Part shown: positions 32,853-45,994 of the stretch, in pieces
Position numbering within the stretch: position 1 is the first letter of the stretch
How the letters are laid out: the number at the start of each line of letters is the position of its first letter
Virus record (IMG/VR): IMGVR_UViG_3300043411_002184
Coordinates: 1 to 45,994 of that record
Source: a virus
DNA: 45,994 nucleotides
Reading direction: 5' to 3' (one strand)
Made by a program: the position numbers and the translations under genes
The notes under the pieces: generated by a model
Told to the model about the DNA's origin: nothing
Databases searched by the model: none
Seen by the model: only the letters and a program-made list of their open reading frames with translations

Positions 32853-32880
32853 AAAAAAGGCTACTTCGGTAGCCTTTTTT
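32853..32880. terminator. Bidirectional rho-independent terminator
   Basis: A perfect 12-base-pair stem AAAAAAGGCTAC / GTAGCCTTTTTT closed by the stable TTCG tetraloop. The A-run and T-run make it work in both directions. It ends the fibre transcript on the plus strand and overlaps the stop codon of the minus-strand endonuclease gene (TAA at 32881-32879). Confidence 0.9.
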
Positions 32881-33847
32881 ATTGCCTGAAATTTATGGTG
32901 AATACTTTATTCCCACAATCTTCAACTTTTAGAAAAGTATTTATTTCCATGTTTTCAATTTCAGATTTAGAATTATCATATTTGACACCTAACAATTTCT
33001 TAAGTTGTGGTTTTTGACATTGAAAATTACTTTGTAATCGACCGTTCTTAATCCAAGATTGAGCTGGTGGCGTATCTTTAAGCTCGGCGAAGCCAAGAAG
33101 CCGATAAACTTTGCCTCGTGAATATCTCTTGTCGGCATATCCAATTAAAGTGGATCCGACAAAATCATTTTTAACTTTTGCAAAAAGATTTTGAATTCCA
33201 TCAATAACCGTGGTATTCAGTTTTGTAGCTATCCTATAAATTTCAAAATCCGCATTTATACCTGTCCTATTTTCGCCAATAGAAATGGCTTGAACAATTT
33301 TATTTTTATAAATTAACCCTAAACAATAATCGGCTTGTCTATATCCTAGAAGGTGATTTTCATTGAAAAATAATTCACTTTCTTGTTTCGATATAGGTCT
33401 TAGGTCACAGCTACTTGCAAAAATGGTGTTTTCAAATTTGTTGAGCTTTGTATAAATCATGGATAAGCAAATTTCAAATTTATTTAAAAGCTCATAATCC
33501 CAAAAATGGAGAAGTTGAATAGGTGATTTTTCTGTTTTAAATAAGAGACCTCTTCCATTAGAATATCTAGATTGATGCCAATAAACCCCATTCACTTCAA
33601 TCCCAATATCATTGATCACCATATCGATTTCGTATGGAGAAATCAATTTCCTATTATTCATTTCTATATTAGGAAATGATTGTTCTAAAATATTAAACAA
33701 TTTTTGTTCAATGGCCGATCTACCACATTTACAATATGGACAAACTGGGACTGAGCCATTTCCAAAATAAGCCGAAAAAGTTTTGTTGCACCCCTTATGG
33801 ATGAATTTGTACTCTACATGTTGTCCAATGTAATCTTCAATGCCCAC
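32879..33847 (-). CDS. Homing endonuclease, C-terminal part (VSR-like nuclease core), downstream of frameshift
   Basis: A 322-codon frame with only a GTG at its start; it is better read as the continuation of the frame ending at 33814. It begins in the middle of a zinc-knuckle region (CNKTF, CPYCKC). A nuclease core of the VSR/EDxHD type follows: 'SAIEQKLFNILEQ', then 'YEIDMVINDIGIEVNGVYWH' at about residues 68-87, where Glu/Asp and the ending G-x-Y-W-H are the family's active-site signature (I-Bth0305I-type). The remaining part ('FFNENHLLGYRQADYCLGLIYKNKIV', 'YADKRYSRGKVYRLLGF', then a Q-K-x-x-L-K-K-L-L ending) is the region usually found after the core in these phage endonucleases. The codons look intact apart from the shift. 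The stop lies inside the terminator. Activity depends on whether a fused product is made. Confidence 0.7.
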   Translation of the reverse strand: MGIEDYIGQHVEYKFIHKGCNKTFSAYFGNGSVPVCPYCKCGRSAIEQKLFNILEQSFPNIEMNNRKLISPYEIDMVINDIGIEVNGVYWHQSRYSNGRGLLFKTEKSPIQLLHFWDYELLNKFEICLSMIYTKLNKFENTIFASSCDLRPISKQESELFFNENHLLGYRQADYCLGLIYKNKIVQAISIGENRTGINADFEIYRIATKLNTTVIDGIQNLFAKVKNDFVGSTLIGYADKRYSRGKVYRLLGFAELKDTPPAQSWIKNGRLQSNFQCQKPQLKKLLGVKYDNSKSEIENMEINTFLKVEDCGNKVFTINFRQ

Positions 33848-34632
33848 ATAAATGGTTCAATCTTAGAATTAGCAAGCTGTTGTAATCTAATTGGGAGAAT
33901 TTCTTTTTTGTATGTTTTTATTCTTTTAATCTTATGTCTGGTTTTAAATTCTTCAGATTGTGCAATATGTTCTACACCAAAGTTTTTCAAATTATATTCT
34001 TTTAATTTTTCTCTCACTTCAGGAATTTGAAGATTGTATTCTACTCCGTGTCTTTTTAAATTTGTTTGTTTCACTTTATCTTTTATGATTTGGCTAGAAC
34101 TCGGATTCTCATTCCCAAATTTTTTAAGACTCGTGACTTTTGCTTTTTCACGCACTTCTTTACTTTGAAGAGTAGATGTCGTTCCATATTTTCGTAATGA
34201 GGTATTTCTGACTTTTTCTTTAAATTCTGGTGTAGATGAAGCCGATTCAAAACCATATTTTTCTAAATTGGTTTGCTTAATCTTATTTTTAAAGATCTCA
34301 CTCTGATAGACATTTTCGACACCATATTTTTCTAAATTAGATTTTGATCTCCTTTTCAAAAGGAGACTTTGAGCTACAGGACACTTCACACTACAAAATT
34401 GTCTAAAACCCTTTTCAGTGCTCCAGAGTGATGTAATGGCTCCACAAGCACATCTAGGTCTAACGTAATCATTATGAACTAAAGCATATACTTTTTCTTT
34501 AAATGTGAATAAATCTTTCATTTCAGTATTGTTTATAAGATCTCTTAATGATTTATTAGATTTCCAAAGCTTACAATTGTACTTTCCATTTTTCACCATC
34601 TTTGCATTAAAGTCTTCAATAAGCTTGCCCAT
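33814..34632 (-). CDS. Homing endonuclease, N-terminal part (zinc motif and repeated DNA-binding modules), upstream of frameshift
   Basis: A 272-residue frame starting at ATG 34632 with GAGGAG 7 bases upstream. A zinc-type C-x-C-G ... FCSxKC motif lies at about residues 60-80. From about 95 to 250 there are about six units of the form K-x-x-LxKYGxxNxxQSxxxxxKxK, each of roughly 23-25 residues, typical of the repeated minor-groove-binding modules of phage homing endonucleases with VSR-like nuclease cores. The frame ends at TAG 33814-33816, and the nuclease core is in the -1 frame from the overlap on. Reading 'EPFM' into 'GIEDYIGQHVEYKF' across the overlap restores a normal protein. This points to one lost or gained base. 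No slippery heptamer is visible, so a broken gene is more likely than programmed frameshifting. Confidence 0.7.
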   Translation of the reverse strand: MGKLIEDFNAKMVKNGKYNCKLWKSNKSLRDLINNTEMKDLFTFKEKVYALVHNDYVRPRCACGAITSLWSTEKGFRQFCSVKCPVAQSLLLKRRSKSNLEKYGVENVYQSEIFKNKIKQTNLEKYGFESASSTPEFKEKVRNTSLRKYGTTSTLQSKEVREKAKVTSLKKFGNENPSSSQIIKDKVKQTNLKRHGVEYNLQIPEVREKLKEYNLKNFGVEHIAQSEEFKTRHKIKRIKTYKKEILPIRLQQLANSKIEPFMWALKITLDNM

Positions 34633-36475: not shown

Positions 36476-38113
36476 ATGGGATGCTGTCCTGAATCGCCAC
36501 CAATTCTGGTTGCTGATGATACACCACCAAATAATGGTCCTGAGCAAGAGCTGAGACCAGGTGAAACCGTAGAGTGCTTCTCTAAGAGGGCAGGTAATTC
36601 TTCGGGTGCACATGATGATGCAGTTGAAAATCGGTTAGAAAAAATTCAAAATGAGAGCATTACAACTAGTAGCTCGGCCTCTGTTAATGTGCAATTCACA
36701 TTAACTCCTGGATCTATTTCCCCAAATGTAACCTATGAAATTTCAGGCGATGCTTTACCTGGAGTTACATTTACAACGTCTGGATTATTATCTGGTACCT
36801 TTGATAGCTCTGTTCATAGTAAAAAGTTAACAATTTCTATTTCAGCTAAGTCTAATGGTACTGAAATAGATAATAGGACTTATTCATTCTCACCGCAAAT
36901 TAGTACGGACAATAATTCGATCAAATTCGTATTGCCATTGCCTGGTGGAACCGTAAATTCCCCATTCGGCATGAGGATGCATCCAATCCATAAAGTTATG
37001 AAACTACATACTGGGATTGATTTAAAAATTGCGCCAGGTGTGGATGGGGATGTAGTTGCTGCTGCAGACGGTGTAGTCACTAAAGCATCAATGACTGATC
37101 CTCGTGGATACGGTAATGCTATTCATATTAAACATGAATCCGGAAGTGGAAAGCATTTGTGTACTACCACTTATAATCACCTTGCTAAATTTTATGTGGC
37201 TGTAGGTCAGAGAGTAATGGCCGGACAGAAAATTGCAAGAGAGGGTGGTGCACGTGGTGTTATAGGTTCTGGTGGTTCAACTGGACTACATTTACATTTT
37301 GAATGTAAACTCCCAAATGGGTCTTTTACCGATCCGCTGCCCTTTATAAAAGGCACAGTGGCTATTGATAGTACTAAAATGGCAAATGGGAACCCCGGTT
37401 CTCCAAGTGCAGTATCAAATAACTCTGCTTTGACGGTTTCAGATGTATCGGCTAAAGGTGGATGCCCTGAAATAGGAACTTCAAATTACCCAAAAGATCC
37501 TGACCCGAATAAGCCAGAACCAGCACAAGAAAATCTTCCTTCATCTGGAAATCCTGAATTTGAAGCTTTCGAACACGCTTGGTTTATTTGTATGAAGGGC
37601 GAGGTTGGTCCAGATTGGAATACCGCACCTGGCACCGATCCGTCAGATCCGGATATTTTAGCAGGAGCATGTGAAACTAAATTGCAGAAGAAAAAATGTG
37701 GCTTTAAAGAATGGCCACAAGCCGCTGGTGGAACAACAAAATTTGGCATTGCTAGTTCTGGTAATCCTGCCACTAACATTAAAGCATCAGATTATGCGGC
37801 ATGTAAAAAACTTGGGTATCAAAATTATTGGTTAAGAGGTAAGATTAATCCAAGTACTTTAGGAAAATATCTTGGTATCTTTATGTTTGATACAAATTAC
37901 CACCATGGGGACGGTAATGGGCGAAGCATTTATAATAAAGCTAATATTGCTAATATACCAAATACAGCTTCTAGAGACATTCAAATGGACGCTCTTGAAA
38001 AGTTATATAACTCAAGAATGGATTTTGCTAATACGTTGAAAGACACTTCTCTGATTAAGGGCGTCAGGAATAGAGTCACGGCGACATACAACTATATAAA
38101 AACACTTCCATAA
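36476..38113 (+). CDS. Bifunctional peptidoglycan hydrolase: M23 endopeptidase plus GH108-like muramidase
   Basis: A 545-residue protein with no membrane segment. Order: a Cys/Pro-rich start (MGCCPESPP), a putative Ig-like (He_PIG) domain at about 70-140 (GDALPGVTFTTSGLLSGTF), an M23/LytM peptidase at about 150-295 with HTGID (H178, D182), Tyr-Asn-His (H235) and LHLHFE (H272, H274) as zinc and catalytic residues, a proline-rich linker (about 335-358), and a GH108-like domain at about 360-545 with candidate acid Glu376 (KGEVG), GGTTKFGI at 418-425, a YW segment at about 451 and a helical C-terminal region like the family's peptidoglycan-binding part. Two bond types in peptidoglycan would be cut. 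The ATG abuts the o-spanin stop. Because the gp5-like spike lacks a lysozyme, this enzyme could serve in the virion, in lysis, or both. Confidence 0.8.
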   Translation: MGCCPESPPILVADDTPPNNGPEQELRPGETVECFSKRAGNSSGAHDDAVENRLEKIQNESITTSSSASVNVQFTLTPGSISPNVTYEISGDALPGVTFTTSGLLSGTFDSSVHSKKLTISISAKSNGTEIDNRTYSFSPQISTDNNSIKFVLPLPGGTVNSPFGMRMHPIHKVMKLHTGIDLKIAPGVDGDVVAAADGVVTKASMTDPRGYGNAIHIKHESGSGKHLCTTTYNHLAKFYVAVGQRVMAGQKIAREGGARGVIGSGGSTGLHLHFECKLPNGSFTDPLPFIKGTVAIDSTKMANGNPGSPSAVSNNSALTVSDVSAKGGCPEIGTSNYPKDPDPNKPEPAQENLPSSGNPEFEAFEHAWFICMKGEVGPDWNTAPGTDPSDPDILAGACETKLQKKKCGFKEWPQAAGGTTKFGIASSGNPATNIKASDYAACKKLGYQNYWLRGKINPSTLGKYLGIFMFDTNYHHGDGNGRSIYNKANIANIPNTASRDIQMDALEKLYNSRMDFANTLKDTSLIKGVRNRVTATYNYIKTLP

Positions 38114-38496: not shown

Positions 38497-39150
38497 CTAT
38501 TCTAATTCTGAAAACCATTCTTGATATGAGCCAGGAAAATTTGCAGGTTGATATACCCAACCTCCCTGATTGTCTGCCTTTAATTTAATAGAAAATTTCA
38601 CCTGTTCTAGTGAGCCTACTAGAACAGGTGAAATTGCTGTAATAAAATGAGGGCCTGCAGGAAATAATACCAAAGTTCCTCTTTGTGGAACTAGACTAAA
38701 ATTATATCCAGCAAATTCTAATTTGCCTCCATAGACCTCGAACCGTGGATCTAACGGAACCCCATTATTAAAATCTTTGAGCCAAACATATCCTACTAGA
38801 TCTACATCTTTTACCTTGACCCATTTCTTTCGAAGATACTTTGCATTTTCACATCCATGAGGTTCACATGGATTCTTGGCATCTTCGAAATACTGAGTGA
38901 ATATTGGATTCTCCATTCCAACTACCGAGGCTGAATATTTTTGTTCAATCGTTGAAACATGCTCTTGAATTCTAGACTTAAACAAATGCACATACTCTGT
39001 ATCTTTCAGAATACGTTCATTCTTAAAAACCTTACCGGCTTCATCAGAAGTTGGATCTTTAATTCCAAGTTCAGAAATAAGCTTCTCGCATATTGATGGC
39101 GAAATAAAGTTTTCGACCACCAAAAAAGGCGAATGTGTTTTATGAGTCAT
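38497..39150 (-). CDS. 2OG-Fe(II) oxygenase (prolyl-hydroxylase-like)
   Basis: A 217-residue protein. An N-terminal helical part ('FLVVENFISPSICEKLISEL') is followed by a double-stranded beta-helix core: 'LVGYVWLKDFN' at about 118-127, 'FEVYGGKLEF' at 137-146 and 'RGTLVLFPAGPHFITAISPV' at 157-175, typical of phage 2OG-Fe(II) oxygenases. Candidate metal ligands are His98 (EPHGCEN) and His168. The usual H-x-D aspartate is not in register: HGCE gives Glu101 at the wrong spacing, so the centre may be altered. The 2OG-binding Arg near the end seems replaced by Lys (K185 or K189). Such phage enzymes are common in T4-like genomes and their substrates are mostly unknown. It is the last gene of the minus-strand unit. 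No clear ribosome site precedes the ATG. Confidence 0.65.
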   Translation of the reverse strand: MTHKTHSPFLVVENFISPSICEKLISELGIKDPTSDEAGKVFKNERILKDTEYVHLFKSRIQEHVSTIEQKYSASVVGMENPIFTQYFEDAKNPCEPHGCENAKYLRKKWVKVKDVDLVGYVWLKDFNNGVPLDPRFEVYGGKLEFAGYNFSLVPQRGTLVLFPAGPHFITAISPVLVGSLEQVKFSIKLKADNQGGWVYQPANFPGSYQEWFSELE

Positions 39151-40135: not shown

Positions 40136-40822
40136 TTAATAATTCTTATTTACGACTTTCCGCCAGAACTCTGAAGACCTAGCTTTCAGTGGTTCATAAA
40201 ATTCTTCTAGGTTAACATGGAATTCTAATGGGAAACCTGAATCGGCCACCATTAACACCACACCTTCTTTTATGTTAGTGCCGTGCATTTCATTATGACT
40301 AGCACCATAAAAGGCCAATTGTAAATTATAGTCGGCAATGTCTTTCTTATCTTTTATTCTACCCGCAGTTTTAAAATCTACAATACACGGAATCCCTTTA
40401 TATGTTCCTACTAAATCACATCGACCGGCAATTTCAAATTCTCTAGAAAACAAAGCACATTCTTGTCCCCAAACTTCATCAACCTTATCCAGTTTAGATT
40501 TTAAAGTTTTAAATGCACCTAGGTCTTTAGAAGATACAGGTTGGCCATTAATTAAGTCATCCACCTTCTGATTCTTTAGATATCTCTCGGCTAACAAATG
40601 TACATTAGTTCCATGGTCACAAGCCGCTTTTGATGCGGCATCGGCTTTAGTTGGACCTAAAGACGTTCTCCAATTAGCTAGAGACTTTTTAGTTTCTTCG
40701 GATTGAGTAGTTCCAAGAATTGTTGTAATGGATGGAAAAAACGTTTCGTCATCAATCTTGTACCACCGCATCCCATCGAAAGTTTCTGTACTTAAATCTG
40801 GATAGGAAAATGGTGGGTTCAT
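40136..40822 (-). CDS. PD-(D/E)XK nuclease family protein (RecB/Cas4-like exonuclease)
   Basis: A 228-residue protein with the full motif set of the RecB-type PD-(D/E)XK fold: 'GTNVHLLAERYL' with His75 and Glu79 (motif I), 'GRCDLVGTYKGIPCIVDFKTA' with Asp136 and the Asp149-x-Lys151 pair (motifs II and III), and 'YNLQLAFYG' with Gln168 and Tyr172 (QxxxY motif). Enzymes of this type are usually DNA exonucleases in phage recombination and DNA processing. All key residues are present, so it should be active. No Cas4-type iron-sulphur cysteines are apparent. The start overlaps the upstream stop (ATGA), which couples it to the basic protein at 40819-41496. Confidence 0.78.
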   Translation of the reverse strand: MNPPFSYPDLSTETFDGMRWYKIDDETFFPSITTILGTTQSEETKKSLANWRTSLGPTKADAASKAACDHGTNVHLLAERYLKNQKVDDLINGQPVSSKDLGAFKTLKSKLDKVDEVWGQECALFSREFEIAGRCDLVGTYKGIPCIVDFKTAGRIKDKKDIADYNLQLAFYGASHNEMHGTNIKEGVVLMVADSGFPLEFHVNLEEFYEPLKARSSEFWRKVVNKNY

Positions 40823-41496
40823 TTGATTCGCTTGTTCATTCTTACTAATCGTTTACTTACCGACTTGCGTCTTGTGCGTTTACCTTTTAGAACTCTTACA
40901 ACGCGTTTACGTCTTGAAGCCACTTTCATTTTCATTCTCGTGGCCGCTGACTTCCTTGGCTTGTACGCACCTTTTGGCGACATCACTATTCGACCACGTC
41001 TAAAACCTGAAGTAACTCGATAACCTCTTTTGATCTTCTTACCTGATCGCTTAAAAGCTCTCTTAATACCTTCCTCTATTTTATCATCACTTTCTAATTC
41101 ATCAAGTACTTCTTCAGGATCGATTTCATCAATATCTTCTTCATCCCCTAGTTCGTCGAGGTCATCATCGACTTCCTCTTCATACTTCTCAATTCCCATT
41201 TCTTTTAGGGCTTCGATATCTAGAAGAAGACCATTAGGAAAATCTAAGTTATCCTTCGGAATAAGAATTATTCCGTTGTCAGTCGGAACAACACTTACTT
41301 GATTTCCATCATGATCTTTTAGATTGACGTGTTTATCATCTTCGGCAGCATCAAAAAGTAAATTTAGATTGTCTAAGTCTAAACGAATAGAGAAGCCATC
41401 ACAACTTAATAAAAGGCCTAAATTTGCAAGATGGCCAACATTCCACCCCTTCGGGTCAAATGGCATGCCAACGGTGACTTCTCTAATTAAACTCAT
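40819..41496 (-). CDS. Two-faced charged protein: acidic centre, very basic C-terminus
   Basis: A 225-residue protein. Residues 1-95 form a mixed domain (GLLLSCDGFSIRLDLDNLNLLFD, IILIPKD). Residues about 100-140 are highly acidic (DDDLDELGDEEDIDEIDPEE). Residues about 142-225 are highly basic, with 'KIKRGYRVTSGFRRGRIV', 'KPRKSAATRMKMKVASRRKR' and 'KGKRTRRKSVSKRLVRMNKR'. I recall this basic ending from small proteins in other large phages, without assigned function. It could bind nucleic acid or organise a head core; the acidic part may shield it. It overlaps the upstream gene by one base (TAATG) and the downstream nuclease by ATGA, so the three are co-translated. AAGAGAGA is the ribosome site. 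Confidence 0.6.
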   Translation of the reverse strand: MSLIREVTVGMPFDPKGWNVGHLANLGLLLSCDGFSIRLDLDNLNLLFDAAEDDKHVNLKDHDGNQVSVVPTDNGIILIPKDNLDFPNGLLLDIEALKEMGIEKYEEEVDDDLDELGDEEDIDEIDPEEVLDELESDDKIEEGIKRAFKRSGKKIKRGYRVTSGFRRGRIVMSPKGAYKPRKSAATRMKMKVASRRKRVVRVLKGKRTRRKSVSKRLVRMNKRIK

Positions 41497-42308
41497 TAGT
41501 CTCTCTTTTCAAGTTCGGTGAGAAGCTTATCCATTAAACGTCTAGATACACCACTGGCCGAATCGTGTGTGGCAGATTTTTTCATCATAGCCACTACCGT
41601 CGGTTTAGTAAGAATCATTTCTGGAACGCCAAAGGCCACACATATTTTCTTTGCAGAGTCCATGAACCCTTTAAGTCCTGCATCTACGTGATTTGGGTCA
41701 GTACCCATTGATCCAACAGCTACGGCTTCTTGAACCTTAGCTTTTTTATCGCCAATCACACCATCATGGAATTTAATACCTGCTAATTTTGCAAAATTTC
41801 TAATCGCCATAAAGACTGCATCATCTGCACGAACCTTAGAAATAGTTCTTTTCAATCCAGATTTAATCCCGGCTTTGGCATCATGTTCAACCATTTCTGC
41901 AGGAAGACCTAATGATACTAAAATTTCTTCAACCGATTGTTGAAGTGGAGTACCTTCAAGTTCATCTTCTTCGCTTTTGGCTTCATCAATCTTTGAAGGT
42001 GTAATACCATAAAAATTGTATAATGCACTATGGAGTGCAAGGAAAGCACGAACTCGAGCTGGTTTAGATTTAAGGTTCATTGCACCTTCAACTACACTCT
42101 CACGAACAGCTGGTTTATTCAAATACATTCCAGGAATGCCAAACATAGAAAATAGTTCTGCAATTTTGTCTGCATAATTATTAGAACCGCCAATATCTCG
42201 CATTGATCGCTTCATTGCTTCCACAGAACGATCAAACGTAAAGCCCTTAGTGTCTTCTTTTTTACCTTCAGACAAAACACGAGCTAGAAAATTTTTACCA
42301 ATCGACAT
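41496..42308 (-). CDS. Protein of three helical repeats, unknown function
   Basis: A 270-residue, mostly helical protein with AAGGAG before the start. Three repeats of about 50 residues are visible, at about 46-99, 124-178 and 216-268. Each has a helix leading into G-[ILV]-P (Gly57, Gly134, Gly227), then a short turn (GMYLNKPAV, AEMVEHDAK, EMILTKPTV), a lysine/serine-rich stretch and a closing helix (RVRAFLALHSAL, DDAVFMAIRNFA, VSRRLMDKLLTEL). Linkers between them are acidic or polar. The N-terminal 'LARVLSEGKK' contains an L-x-E-G sequence that resembles T4 prohead-protease sites, which would fit a head-core protein, but this is weak. No enzyme motif is seen. Confidence 0.6.
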   Translation of the reverse strand: MSIGKNFLARVLSEGKKEDTKGFTFDRSVEAMKRSMRDIGGSNNYADKIAELFSMFGIPGMYLNKPAVRESVVEGAMNLKSKPARVRAFLALHSALYNFYGITPSKIDEAKSEEDELEGTPLQQSVEEILVSLGLPAEMVEHDAKAGIKSGLKRTISKVRADDAVFMAIRNFAKLAGIKFHDGVIGDKKAKVQEAVAVGSMGTDPNHVDAGLKGFMDSAKKICVAFGVPEMILTKPTVVAMMKKSATHDSASGVSRRLMDKLLTELEKRD

Positions 42309-42355: not shown

Positions 42356-42889
42356 TCATTTGAGGGAATCTAAGTCCCCAATGACTTCCATCTCATCGTC
42401 TTCATCATCGTCTAGCGAGTCGAGATCATCATCGTCTCCTAAGTCAAGATCTTTTTCTTCTTCGCCGTCTGGGTTTTTGTCCTTCGGCCAGACTACATCA
42501 ACAATGTCGAAGTCTAAAGACAACTTATTAATGGCTGCTTCAATATCGTCTTCAACACCCAGAAGCTTTTTCATCTCTTCTTCGAACCTATCTGATTGTT
42601 CGGCATTAACATAGACCTTGATAATATCGCCATCATCTGTCTCAAGCCCAAATGGTACAGTATCAACTTCATCATTAATATCGGCTGCCTTCTCAAGATA
42701 ATCTGCCACATCTGACCCAGTAACTTCGCCTTCAGAATTAATAGTGTTTCTCATCATAGAAAAACCAACATCTGTAGACTTGACTTTATTAGCTACGTCA
42801 TTTTTTCCAGCATCGCTCGAATCGCTCTTTTTAAGGTCTAGCACTTTTGGTGCTGATGACAAGCCATTAACTTCTTTTAGTAGGTTCAT
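42356..42889 (-). CDS. Acidic protein of unknown function (head-core-like composition)
   Basis: A 177-residue protein that overlaps the upstream ligase-domain gene by ATGA. Residues 1-70 are polar and helical. Residues about 80-135 form a folded unit (VPFGLETDDGDIIKVYVN, 'DIEAAINKLSLDFDIVDVVW') sharing the SLDFD element with the protein at 39163-39705. Residues about 140-177 are mostly Asp and Glu. Acidic tails like this occur in scaffold or core proteins and in DNA mimics; neither can be shown. A 7-base-pair hairpin (42341-42358) begins at its stop codon, and an AGTAAATAC sequence beyond it could be a degraded late promoter for the next gene. Confidence 0.55.
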   Translation of the reverse strand: MNLLKEVNGLSSAPKVLDLKKSDSSDAGKNDVANKVKSTDVGFSMMRNTINSEGEVTGSDVADYLEKAADINDEVDTVPFGLETDDGDIIKVYVNAEQSDRFEEEMKKLLGVEDDIEAAINKLSLDFDIVDVVWPKDKNPDGEEEKDLDLGDDDDLDSLDDDEDDEMEVIGDLDSLK

Positions 42890-45204
42890 TGTTGGTCCTT
42901 TGGGTCAGGTTTCTTAAATTTAAGAAACTTAATGTTTGGATTTCTCTTACGCTTTACAATTTGTTTTCCACCGACTTTATCCTGCACCGGGGCAATACTT
43001 GCAGACAAAGTTGTAGTTCCACCAGCTACTTCGCCAGTAGCTGGCTGTCCTGAAACAGGTTCACCTTCTTCTTTAAGAAGCTCTTGATCAACCGTCATAA
43101 TTAATGGAGTATCTTTATCGCCACCTAGCACCTGATTTTGAATTGCTCTAACTCTGGTAATTAATGGAGAAGTTGGAACAAATTGTTGAGCATAAAAATA
43201 CAGTTTAGGCAAGAATTTAACCTTCTGGTCAAATGTTAATTCTTCATATCTGAAAGCATTATTTACAAGATTTGTAACACGCTCCATTTTTATTCCAGGA
43301 GCTTGTTGAACTAAAAGGGAAATAGTTTTAAAATGATCCGCCCAGTCAATAGGAACATCTCTCCCAAATGATAAATCCATGTGTAAAAATTTAACCCACT
43401 GTGCTGGAATTTTTCGAGTAGTTTTAAAAGTTTCAGCTGCTATTTTTTTGCTAATTAATTTTGCGACAGCTGGAGAACTGGCTCGCCAGACTGGATATCC
43501 CCAGAAGTTTAAGGCGCTCATTTCATTTGTCCAAGAGGTCATTCTATAATGAGCTTTATCTCGCACAAGTCTAATGCCACGTGTATCATCTGCTTTGTAG
43601 ATTAACACAGTCATTAAAACTGTAGCTATGTAGATATTAAACAGCGTCCAAGAATCTGGGACAGAAGCGTATCTCGCCTTGTCGGTATAGTTTCGCTTTT
43701 CGAGAAGTAAAGAACCAGCTTCTTCAAATAAGCTTTCAGTAAGTTCTTCTTCGCCACCAGCGTGAACCATCTTGGCAATGCGGCCATAGAGTGCTGCAAC
43801 TAGTTCATCAAAGGCTTTAGTATTTTTAACCTTTTCTAATAATTCGGCAAGATTTCGTTTAGTTTCTGCAAATGAAACTAATGTCCTCTTAACAATTTCT
43901 TTGCTTAACCCAATTGTCTTTCCGGATTTTAATTTTAAACGATAAGTATGTTCAATATCATCTTTATGATGTTTGAAGTCTTCTAACATCTGTTTTAACT
44001 CGTCTAAAGTAGATGAAATTACGGCTACCGCCTTATTCTTAGTTCCATTGAAATCATCTGCACCATTTAATGTCTTTGCTACATTTCTGAGAGTAGACGA
44101 AGCATCTTCTCCCTTTGCATCAGTAAAAATCTTTTTAACAGATCGACCAAGTGCTAAGTCTTTATTTCCGAACAAATCGGCCAGACGAATCTTCATCTGA
44201 CCTACAATCCCGCCTCTAGATTCTAACGGTGCCGAATCATCTAGAGTTCTAATCATTCCAGAAATCTGATTTCTGACAGCAAAGTTGAATTGATTGATAG
44301 TAGTGAAACCATCTTTATCAACAATCTTAATCTGTTCACCAGTGGTCGGATCTTTTAATACTACACCTTCAATGCCAATATCTTCATCGCTAGTCAAATC
44401 ATTCGCAGCAAGTGCTGGCTTAATTTTACTAACAAACTTATCAAGTAATTCTTTTTTGATTGCAACTTTGTATTTTGTTTTTACATCAGAAAGGATTTGC
44501 TCTTTAGCGATCTTTGCTTCGGCCCGCTTGTCTTTTGGGATCGATCCTAATGAGGTGGTCATTAAGTCAAAGTTAGAAAAGTTATCTACGCCAGAACTAG
44601 CTTCTAAGAAATTTTCAAGTTCTTTAATTTCTTTTTCAACATCAATAGACTTAAGAGTTTCTGGTTTTATCTTTTGTACACCCACGAACCTAAAAGTTTG
44701 AGTTGTCGGAATCCGTTCTAAATTTTCACCGTCTTTGGTATCAACAATATGAATCTTTACCGAGACCTCTTGGTTCTCTAACATACCAGCTAGTTGATCA
44801 GCCTTAACATCTGTAGTGCCTTCTACTCCACGAAGGATAGCAATAAAATTCTTTCCATCTAATCCATAAGACACAGCATTAGGTTGTCGTCCGAATAAGA
44901 TTTCAACCTCAATAGTATCGCCTGGCTGCAAGACCGTTTTAATGTCTCGCTCTTTTTCTAATAGTACTGCTTGAACACCACGTGATCCATTGTACGCAGC
45001 AAAGTACGGATAGTCTTGTTCTGAATAGAATTTTTCAGAATTTTCTCTTTTCCCAGCTCTAGATGTATAAATCTTACCCTCATCATCTAGACCGAACCAG
45101 AGATTCATTCCGTCATTTTTTTCGGAAACCCGCATATTAGCAATATTTCGTACTGCGGTAATAAAGGCTTTGACCTCAAGGTCTTCAATATGTGTAATTG
45201 ACAT
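42886..45204 (-). CDS. Ligase-type nucleotidyltransferase domain fused to a large C-terminal region
   Basis: A 772-residue protein. The N-terminal 300 residues carry the covalent nucleotidyltransferase motifs of DNA/RNA ligases and capping enzymes in order: motif I K29-N-D-G32, a YTSRAGK segment at 46-52, a GDTIEVEILFG strand at 95-105 (motif III-like), FIAILRGV at about 120-127 (IIIa-like), E279-G-V-V-L-K284 (motif IV) and K293-I-V-D-K297 (motif V). Lys29 would be the AMP- or GMP-accepting residue. The remaining roughly 470 residues include helices (about 395-490), a hydrophobic stretch near 525-540 (LFNIYIATVLMTVLIY), aromatic-rich sequence and a basic tail. I do not recognise this part. 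It heads the operon with the charged proteins and PD-(D/E)XK nuclease, from a perfect late promoter. The substrate is unknown. Confidence 0.65.
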   Translation of the reverse strand: MSITHIEDLEVKAFITAVRNIANMRVSEKNDGMNLWFGLDDEGKIYTSRAGKRENSEKFYSEQDYPYFAAYNGSRGVQAVLLEKERDIKTVLQPGDTIEVEILFGRQPNAVSYGLDGKNFIAILRGVEGTTDVKADQLAGMLENQEVSVKIHIVDTKDGENLERIPTTQTFRFVGVQKIKPETLKSIDVEKEIKELENFLEASSGVDNFSNFDLMTTSLGSIPKDKRAEAKIAKEQILSDVKTKYKVAIKKELLDKFVSKIKPALAANDLTSDEDIGIEGVVLKDPTTGEQIKIVDKDGFTTINQFNFAVRNQISGMIRTLDDSAPLESRGGIVGQMKIRLADLFGNKDLALGRSVKKIFTDAKGEDASSTLRNVAKTLNGADDFNGTKNKAVAVISSTLDELKQMLEDFKHHKDDIEHTYRLKLKSGKTIGLSKEIVKRTLVSFAETKRNLAELLEKVKNTKAFDELVAALYGRIAKMVHAGGEEELTESLFEEAGSLLLEKRNYTDKARYASVPDSWTLFNIYIATVLMTVLIYKADDTRGIRLVRDKAHYRMTSWTNEMSALNFWGYPVWRASSPAVAKLISKKIAAETFKTTRKIPAQWVKFLHMDLSFGRDVPIDWADHFKTISLLVQQAPGIKMERVTNLVNNAFRYEELTFDQKVKFLPKLYFYAQQFVPTSPLITRVRAIQNQVLGGDKDTPLIMTVDQELLKEEGEPVSGQPATGEVAGGTTTLSASIAPVQDKVGGKQIVKRKRNPNIKFLKFKKPDPKDQQ

Positions 45205-45301: not shown

Positions 45302-45556
45302 TTATTCGATGCCTGGTTCAGCCACTGCTTCTGGCACGGATGCTGCTTCTTTTTCAGCAAGTTCTTTCTTTACAGCTTCGGCAATCTGAGCGCCAATAGC
45401 CTGAAGAGCCGCCTGCGATTTAATCACGGCCATTTGTTCACGTTGAAGATCAGCGTTAATAGCGTTATAAACACCTACGGCCGATTGAACACCTTGGCTA
45501 AAGTCCTCAACATTGTGAGTTACACCGTCGAGAGTAAGAGTACGTTGGTCTGTCAT
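45302..45556 (-). CDS. DUF6447-like small helical protein
   Basis: An 84-residue protein with AAAGGAAA before the ATG. 'TLTLDGVTHNVEDFS' at the start followed by one long helix ('AINADLQREQMAVIKSQAALQAIGAQI') fits the DUF6447 family of small phage proteins, in which a short beta hairpin (I-x-x-D-G-x-x-Y) precedes a coiled coil. Here the hairpin Tyr is His. The C-terminal 20 residues are Ala/Glu/Pro-rich and probably disordered. Its function is not known. It stands alone between a CATAAATA promoter and a hairpin. Confidence 0.55.
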   Translation of the reverse strand: MTDQRTLTLDGVTHNVEDFSQGVQSAVGVYNAINADLQREQMAVIKSQAALQAIGAQIAEAVKKELAEKEAASVPEAVAEPGIE

Positions 45557-45650: not shown

Positions 45651-45994
45651 TCAAGAATCGCCTGCTAATCCTCCTAAAGTTTGTTTTGCTTGACCTGGCT
45701 TCACATCACTCATCTGAAGGCCAGGTCTTTTCTTCTTCAATTCGAGAACTGGCGCTGATCCGTCAGTTACTCGAAGTGATTCTGAATTGAACTTCATTTC
45801 ACATGACTTGCCGACTGCGTCGGCATTTCTGGATTTAATGAATTCAAATCGATATAGACCTTGTTCTTTCATCGCATTACTACGAACTGTTGCAATCATC
45901 ACATCGCTCGTATTAGTTTTCGAGCTTCCTGACTGTACTAATCCCTGATGCATAGTCTTTCCCTCTTCGATCATTTCCGTCGCGCTCTTTGCTA
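45651..45994 (-). CDS. DnaB-like replicative helicase, C-terminal part (cut by window edge)
   Basis: The frame is open to the window end, so the Met at 45974 is probably internal. About 114 residues are visible. 'LVQSGSSKTNTSDVMIATV', 'AMKEQGLYRFEFIKSRNADAVG' and 'EMKFNSESLRVTDG' match the last RecA-fold strands of phage DnaB/gp41-type helicases, which carry a gG-SK-NT-D segment, an M-E-G-Y--F--KSR arginine-finger-like segment and an L-I-D ending. The Walker motifs lie outside the window. The last 30 residues are a basic, flexible tail. If correct, a replication gene lies directly upstream of the late minus-strand unit. Confidence 0.6.
   Translation of the reverse strand, partial: AKSATEMIEEGKTMHQGLVQSGSSKTNTSDVMIATVRSNAMKEQGLYRFEFIKSRNADAVGKSCEMKFNSESLRVTDGSAPVLELKKKRPGLQMSDVKPGQAKQTLGGLAGDS

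Follow-up and report, generated by a model that had tools for sequence, protein, structure and literature searches.

A divergent RNA-ligase-like protein as possible capsid cargo of T4-related jumbo phages

Phages are known to make RNA ligases within the infected cell, where these enzymes undo the effects of tRNA-cutting defences. The Rnl2 type (PF09414) is represented by T4 RNA ligase 2 (RnlB, gp24.1) and TbREL1. A separate set of T4 proteins, the internal head proteins IPI-III and Alt, is made from late promoters and starts with a short leader that has [LI]xE at its end; the T4 protease gp21 cleaves after L/I-X-E, and short N-terminal leaders direct internal proteins into the prohead (PMC9026906). 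Polyvalent phage proteins, which are multi-domain, are thought to be injected along with phage DNA (PMC5512222). Here we describe a gene of the 46-kb IMG/VR virus record IMGVR_UViG_3300043411_002184 (45,994 nucleotides, this whole stretch being the window referred to below), a record that also encodes T4-like baseplate genes. The gene is an intact open reading frame (ORF) with an ATG start (42886-45204, minus strand), and we lean towards reading its 772-residue product, P0001, as a divergent ATP-dependent enzyme of the RNA-ligase type that is carried as capsid cargo by a T4-related jumbo phage. A homologue search of public viral contigs (IMG/VR) returned 80 loci. The longest of the contigs with homologues reach 389 kb, which makes it probable that the window represents part of a jumbo-phage genome. 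A single relative turned up in the collection of bacteria and archaea, where its contig (30 kb) belongs to a metagenome-assembled genome, so that a cellular origin of the family is not traceable.

The N-terminal adenylyltransferase domain of P0001 (residues 1-307, 44284-45204; all coordinates for parts of the protein refer to the minus strand), as delimited by an AlphaFold2 model and a VIA alignment to RNA ligases, contains motif I, K29-N-D-G-M-N34 (45103-45120), with Lys29 as the predicted acceptor of AMP, motif Ia, S48-R-A-G-K52 (45049-45063), motif III, E99-V-E101-I-L-F-G105-R-Q-P108-N109 (44878-44910), motif IV, E279-G-V-V-L-K284 (44353-44370), and motif V, K293-I-V-D-K297 (44314-44328). 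In alignment A2, from which all conservation counts are taken and which comprises 63 proteins 27-53% identical to the query, K29, D31 and G32 of motif I, R49 and K52 of motif Ia, E101, G105, P108 and N109 of motif III, E279 and G280 of motif IV, and K293 of motif V are identical in 63/63 members, and at so low an overall identity the motifs are not a product of chance. A preliminary description of this DNA had picked out KNDG, SRAGK, EGVVLK and KIVDK, which we confirm at K29-G32, S48-K52, E279-K284 and K293-K297; the Lys29 that it singled out is kept in every homologue aligned, and motif III had been overlooked. Its statement that the spacings fit a covalent nucleotidyltransferase holds for K29 to E101 (72 residues, a normal distance) and has to be amended for E101 to E279, which a large insert extends to 178 residues, a long distance, and for motif V, which in this family reads K-[ILV]-V-D-[KR] and not the canonical K-x-K, with Val (62/63) or Ile (1/63) at the +2 position and Lys (56/63) or Arg (7/63) at position 297. 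The insert and the unusual motif V would suit a nucleotidyltransferase that has the ligase fold and acts on another target, for instance a protein or a small molecule; this we consider very improbable, given that the motif residues of polynucleotide ligases are kept except for the second lysine of motif V, and that the nearest structures are those of RNA ligases.

When the 63 members were subjected to hmmscan, PF09414 (RNA_ligase) was matched by 57/63 at E values up to 0.1 (best 2e-6) and phrog_548 (RNA ligase) by 20/63, and PF01068 (ATP-dependent DNA ligase) was absent from the families listed. P0001 alone matched neither PF09414 nor phrog_548; single-sequence searches with it were unproductive in Pfam, PHROGs and PDB sequences alike, a search of NCBIfam gave nothing, alignment profiles run against PDB sequences gave chance helical matches only, and no curated family claims the catalytic half at its cut-off. 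The residue five positions after the nucleotidylated lysine is Asn in 44/63 members, Gln in 9/63 and Arg in 0/63; T4 RnlB likewise has Asn at this position (KIHGTN, compared with K[LIV]DG[AS]N in the family), and the T4 DNA ligase gp30 has Arg (KADGAR). The earlier remark that no DNA-ligase signature is visible is borne out, both by the absence of PF01068 from the families listed and by a position 34 that is never Arg.

An AlphaFold2 model of the entire 772-residue protein, built with alignment A2, reached a mean predicted local distance difference test score (pLDDT) of 88.5. Foldseek with this whole model returned no significant PDB match; in a VIA re-alignment, RNA ligases occupied the first 21 rows, with TbREL1 at Z 9.2 over 191 residues (3.7 Å), Naegleria RNA ligase at 8.3-8.7, T4 Rnl1 at 8.2-8.3, T4 Rnl2 at 8.1-8.8 and Palaeococcus RNA ligase at 8.2, and DNA ligases had Z 6.9 or lower. 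T4 Rnl2 and TbREL1 are the top structural matches of the adenylyltransferase domain, yet are only ~11-15% identical to it in the structural alignment, and most alignments stop near residue 303-307, the single longer one, to Rnl2, having a root-mean-square deviation of 18.8. Keeping in mind the negative Foldseek search and the middling Z values, we take the structural evidence to support the motif and profile evidence without replacing it. Membership of P0001 in the covalent nucleotidyltransferase (ligase/capping) superfamily is nearly certain and its likeness to RNA ligases highly probable, and the predicted polynucleotide ligase activity is, in our judgment, likely. The superfamily assignment of the preliminary description thus stands, with PF09414 as the closest, weakly matching family; its suggestion of a candidate new enzyme finds no support as regards fold or chemistry, since motifs and predicted fold place the catalytic half close to known RNA ligases.

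Unlike the Rnl2 type, with which it shares motifs I, Ia, III and IV, the family has the long III-IV spacing, the K-x-V-D-[KR] form of motif V, an apparently different C-terminal domain, an added helical module and a place in a block of head-protein-like genes, and it scores under the PF09414 cut-off. Of 13 large IMG/VR records that carry the family, 10 also have a gene for a standard DNA ligase elsewhere and 12 have genes for standard RNA ligases, so that the ligase described here is an additional enzyme in most of these phages. Homologues with the same motifs occur among the hypothetical proteins of phages PA5oct (EST35_0228), Phosso and Atu_ph07 (gp66), for which the database records give no function; these are short forms, with the helical partner module and a nucleotidyltransferase (NTase) resembling Pol-beta encoded as genes of their own. 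Profile-profile comparison alone also relates the family to DUF6267 (PF19782; P 96.5%, E 8e-10), proteins of unknown function in T4-like cyanophages and pelagiphages; PF19782 in hmmscan gave weak matches in 3/63 members (best 0.0035) and matches under the cut-off in genomes. Both families show an H.E(D) start, K.DG, EG.V and K[LI][VI]..[KR]..F...N(.)F; in several phages the DUF6267 gene follows that of the gp41 helicase, and leader-like [LI]xE starts are present in 3/8 aligned members. DUF6267 proteins differ in their length (270-420 amino acids, aa), in a motif III that reads QGD and in having no fused helical partner module. For the member from P-SSM2, relatives are present in 469 phage records, the majority of them from cyanophages.

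What had been described as a single unrecognised C-terminal region of 470 residues resolves into several parts. A helical C-domain (residues 308-482, 43759-44283) is found family-wide, including in the stand-alone 410-500 aa versions of PA5oct, Phosso and many contigs. It is followed by a disordered linker (residues 483-502, 43699-43758; pLDDT <50 at residues 485-504 in the AlphaFold2 model) that contains the prohead-protease-type sites ELTE490 and LLLE502/KR (here and below, a slash in such a site marks the putative cut). The linker leads into an all-helical partner module (residues 503-697, 43114-43698), which is a gene of its own directly 3' of a short ligase in loci L054, L055 and L145-L154 and, in all loci examined, is always either fused to the ligase gene or directly after it. 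Modelled separately, this module had a pLDDT of 80.7, and fold searches with it alone returned generic ferritin-like bundles only (Z 4.9 or less), for which reason we claim no fold for it; against the viral library it matched only unannotated phage proteins, and the idea that it duplicates the ligase C-domain was rejected (hhalign probability 0.5%). The protein ends in a disordered tail (residues 698-772, 42889-43113) with a further [LI]xE at E712 and a conserved basic end (KRKRNPNIKFLKFKKP); members that lack the helical module carry a similar basic stretch after the ligase domain. In one relative (L022:8850-9335) a domain of ~150 residues lies between ligase and helical module, with a weak match to phrog_16619, 'minor head protein' (2.6e-5), and neither Pfam nor PDB support.

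That the protein is perhaps packaged had been raised in the preliminary description, and this possibility is now backed by independent circumstantial evidence. A leader of the form [LI]xE[GSA] lies within residues 2-22 of 32/61 non-redundant ligase homologues (e.g. LITE/GI, LLSE/SI, ILAE/GI and FIVE/GI), compared with 2.7% of internal stretches and 7.3% of shuffled leaders. Genes located <=5 kb downstream of the ligase have an N-terminal [LI]xE in 43.7% of cases vs. 18.8% internally, and opposite-strand control ORFs gave 15.8% near the N-terminus vs. 13.1% internally. In the linker that joins the ligase to its helical module, an [LI]xE site is present in 22/24 members against 10.1 expected by shuffling, and a stricter form of the site in 20 of the 24 against 4.2. 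Further, 16 phage ORFs (1,003-1,304 aa) combine the ligase with a homologue of the gene that follows it in the window (42356-42889, minus strand; 177 aa, beginning MNLLKE) in one polyprotein, with sites like LIKSISE/DD between the modules. A protease of the gp21 type (PF03420) was found in 15/15 records, which comprised larger records, relatives and T4. In the corresponding block of PA5oct, 12/17 genes, among them that of the Pol-beta-like NTase EST35_0231, carry a note of detection in virions by mass spectrometry (MS), vs. 1/10 genes just upstream. In Atu_ph07, 29 virion proteins were detected from the cluster of coding sequences 31-76 (PMC6102473); the homologue, gp66 as counted from the gp18 anchor, lies within this cluster, the 29 being the cluster total and not a statement on gp66 itself. 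The late promoter claimed earlier is indeed present, as the T4-type octamer TATAAATA on the minus strand at 45242-45235, with 38 nt between it and the ligase ATG downstream, and the same octamer is found near the ligase start in 16/71 homologous loci vs. ~2.6% expected.

The [LI]xE leader of many homologues, the gp21-type protease and the late promoter are features shared with the T4 internal head proteins. Unlike IPI-III and Alt, the putative cargo here is a ligase, leaderless in the window member, and several putative cargo proteins are fused as a polyprotein with internal [LI]xE sites. In the work on polyvalent proteins, RNA ligases figure only as separate phage enzymes (PMC5512222), whereas here protease-type sites delimit the modules. 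A head-cargo context combined with helical additions and a disordered basic tail would also fit an internal head protein with no enzymatic activity, structural or DNA-binding in its role, that has retained the fold only; with all catalytic residues invariant at the low overall identities given above, we find that scarcely credible.

Several observations weigh against a packaged RNA ligase. P0001 and its nearest relatives are without an N-terminal leader, and a stop codon stands before Lys-Met; the [LI]xE candidates of P0001 are all internal, E502 lying at the module junction. The PA5oct homologue EST35_0228 carries no virion MS note, and the 52 virion proteins detected for cyanophage S-CREM2 do not include its gp87, a DUF6267 relative. 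The counted sequences are kin, so that the leader and site statistics are not independent. With regard to the enzyme itself, PF09414 scores fall below the curated cut-off (13-19 bits for members in their genomes vs. 27), and motif V is without a second lysine at +2. The leaderless window member and the two virion results favor an ordinary late RNA ligase that repairs nuclease-cut tRNAs in the infected cell and is never packaged, its [LI]xE sequences being incidental or those of its neighbours only, and RNA ligases for tRNA repair are common in jumbo phages (PMC7824862). Such an enzyme leaves aside the strong enrichment of leaders and junction sites and the fusions to a row of head-cargo-like genes; moreover, canonical RNA ligases are already encoded, and late expression is late against a defence, and we therefore judge this explanation unlikely. 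Because of the missing leader, the missing MS note and the undetected S-CREM2 relative, we infer packaging rather than observe it, and regard it as reasonably probable for the family and as slightly favored for the window member. In the open-licence papers searched, we found no account that describes this family as ligases or as packaged proteins, and no report of any relative in virions came to light.

Upstream on the same strand, and truncated by the end of the window, lies a gene whose product clusters with DnaB-type helicases (45651-45974, minus strand; BLAST cluster of 66 loci, its representative matching phrog_19 at 4e-65), so that the earlier view of the ligase as standing apart from replication genes was only partly right. 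In the gap between this gene and the ligase lies a small ORF with an acidic product of 84 aa (45302-45556, minus strand), and ORFs of similar size are located there in 35 homologous loci. Primase genes precede the ligase in 50 homologous loci and helicase genes in 66, and a PD-(D/E)XK exonuclease is encoded downstream (40136-40822, minus strand; phrog_298 8e-50, PF12705 1e-6; conserved in 46 loci). These neighbours, together with the basic tail and a place with packaged DNA, would fit a DNA-sealing enzyme acting on genome nicks at packaging or after injection, or at the replication fork beside primase and helicase. We hold this to be decidedly unlikely: the family resembles RNA ligases in both profile and fold, with DNA ligases scoring lower, PA5oct as well as the 10/13 large records already mentioned encode a separate ATP-dependent DNA ligase, and in the window the late promoter stands between the helicase gene and the ligase.

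Downstream of the 177-aa gene the block continues with a 270-aa protein (41496-42308, minus strand) that has the leader-like start MSIGKNFLARVLSE/GK and is fused in many relatives to the homologue of the 177-aa gene, and with a 225-aa protein (40819-41496, minus strand) that starts with the leader-like MSLIRE and has a very basic C-terminus. Beyond the exonuclease, a 217-aa protein (38497-39150, minus strand) marks the block end in 39 loci and matches a 2OG-Fe(II) oxygenase PHROG very weakly (0.037). Further away, a 545-aa protein (36476-38113, plus strand) has one region (143-313) that resembles peptidases or endolysins and, at the C-terminus, another that is endolysin-like (409-539), and two adjoining ORFs between structural genes (32879-34632, minus strand) match parts of the homing-endonuclease family phrog_3339, probably representing one broken homing endonuclease.

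In some relatives the Pol-beta-like NTase is encoded close downstream of the ligase or fused to it; it is a separate gene adjoining short ligases in 11 loci, and in L065:7974-10163 the ligase domain and the NTase (GSAF..SSDIDIAL) form one protein. RlaP NTases have been described as companions of jumbo-phage RNA ligases (PMC7824862); an identity of the neighbouring NTase with RlaP was rejected, since the NTase genes of these relatives gave no match to PF10127. In Agrobacterium phage Atu_ph07 (L105:11679-17029, record 44090-49507), the ligase, NTase and helical module are followed by ~8 genes of similar size, the first of which begin MRWHQLIE or MKWHQLTE; their YRG[LM] motif, present also in neighbours in L010 and L012, recalls ADP-ribosyltransferases such as T4 Alt, an idea that found no Pfam or PDB support; the match of the Atu_ph07 proteins is to phrog_11975, of unknown function. 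On a 10-kb IMG/VR contig (L084:6609-8546) the ligase gene is broken inside motif I (…TEKLDG/C … ANGILVHN/SNLWFG…, slashes marking the break), in a manner that resembles an intein or a remnant of one, and the two halves are separated by a reading frame that looks like an endonuclease.

In the mechanism that we propose for a packaged ligase, the protein would be made late and enter the prohead, where the gp21-type protease would cut it at [LI]xE, after E502 and perhaps near E712 too. The ligase, the helical partner and the basic peptide would remain with the packaged DNA and then be injected. Lys29 would take AMP from ATP, as is usual in the superfamily, and the enzyme would activate a 5'-phosphate end and join it to a 3'-OH, so that the phage could seal breaks ahead of its own gene expression. 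The likeliest substrate would be RNA, such as tRNA or rRNA that defence nucleases of the host have cleaved, with nicked incoming DNA as the main alternative; our preference for RNA over DNA is a weak one.

As a broader and tentative suggestion, about which we are more doubtful than confident, T4-related jumbo phages may deliver from the capsid a ready-made kit for nucleic-acid repair, made up of an RNA-ligase-type enzyme and a helical partner, joined in some phages by a Pol-beta-like NTase, and encoded either as a gene row or as a polyprotein from which the prohead protease would release the single injected enzymes, with the DUF6267 proteins of marine T4-like phages belonging to the same system. 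A capsid-carried ligase, if true, would act at the first moment of infection, ahead of any reading of phage genes, which would explain why an extra ligase is kept beside head-protein-like genes despite the canonical RNA and DNA ligases of these phages. It would provide a testable function for a family present in dozens of jumbo-phage contigs and linked, via DUF6267, to hundreds of records of T4-like phages. It would also suggest that in some jumbo phages the injected enzymes are first made as polyproteins and then processed by a protease.

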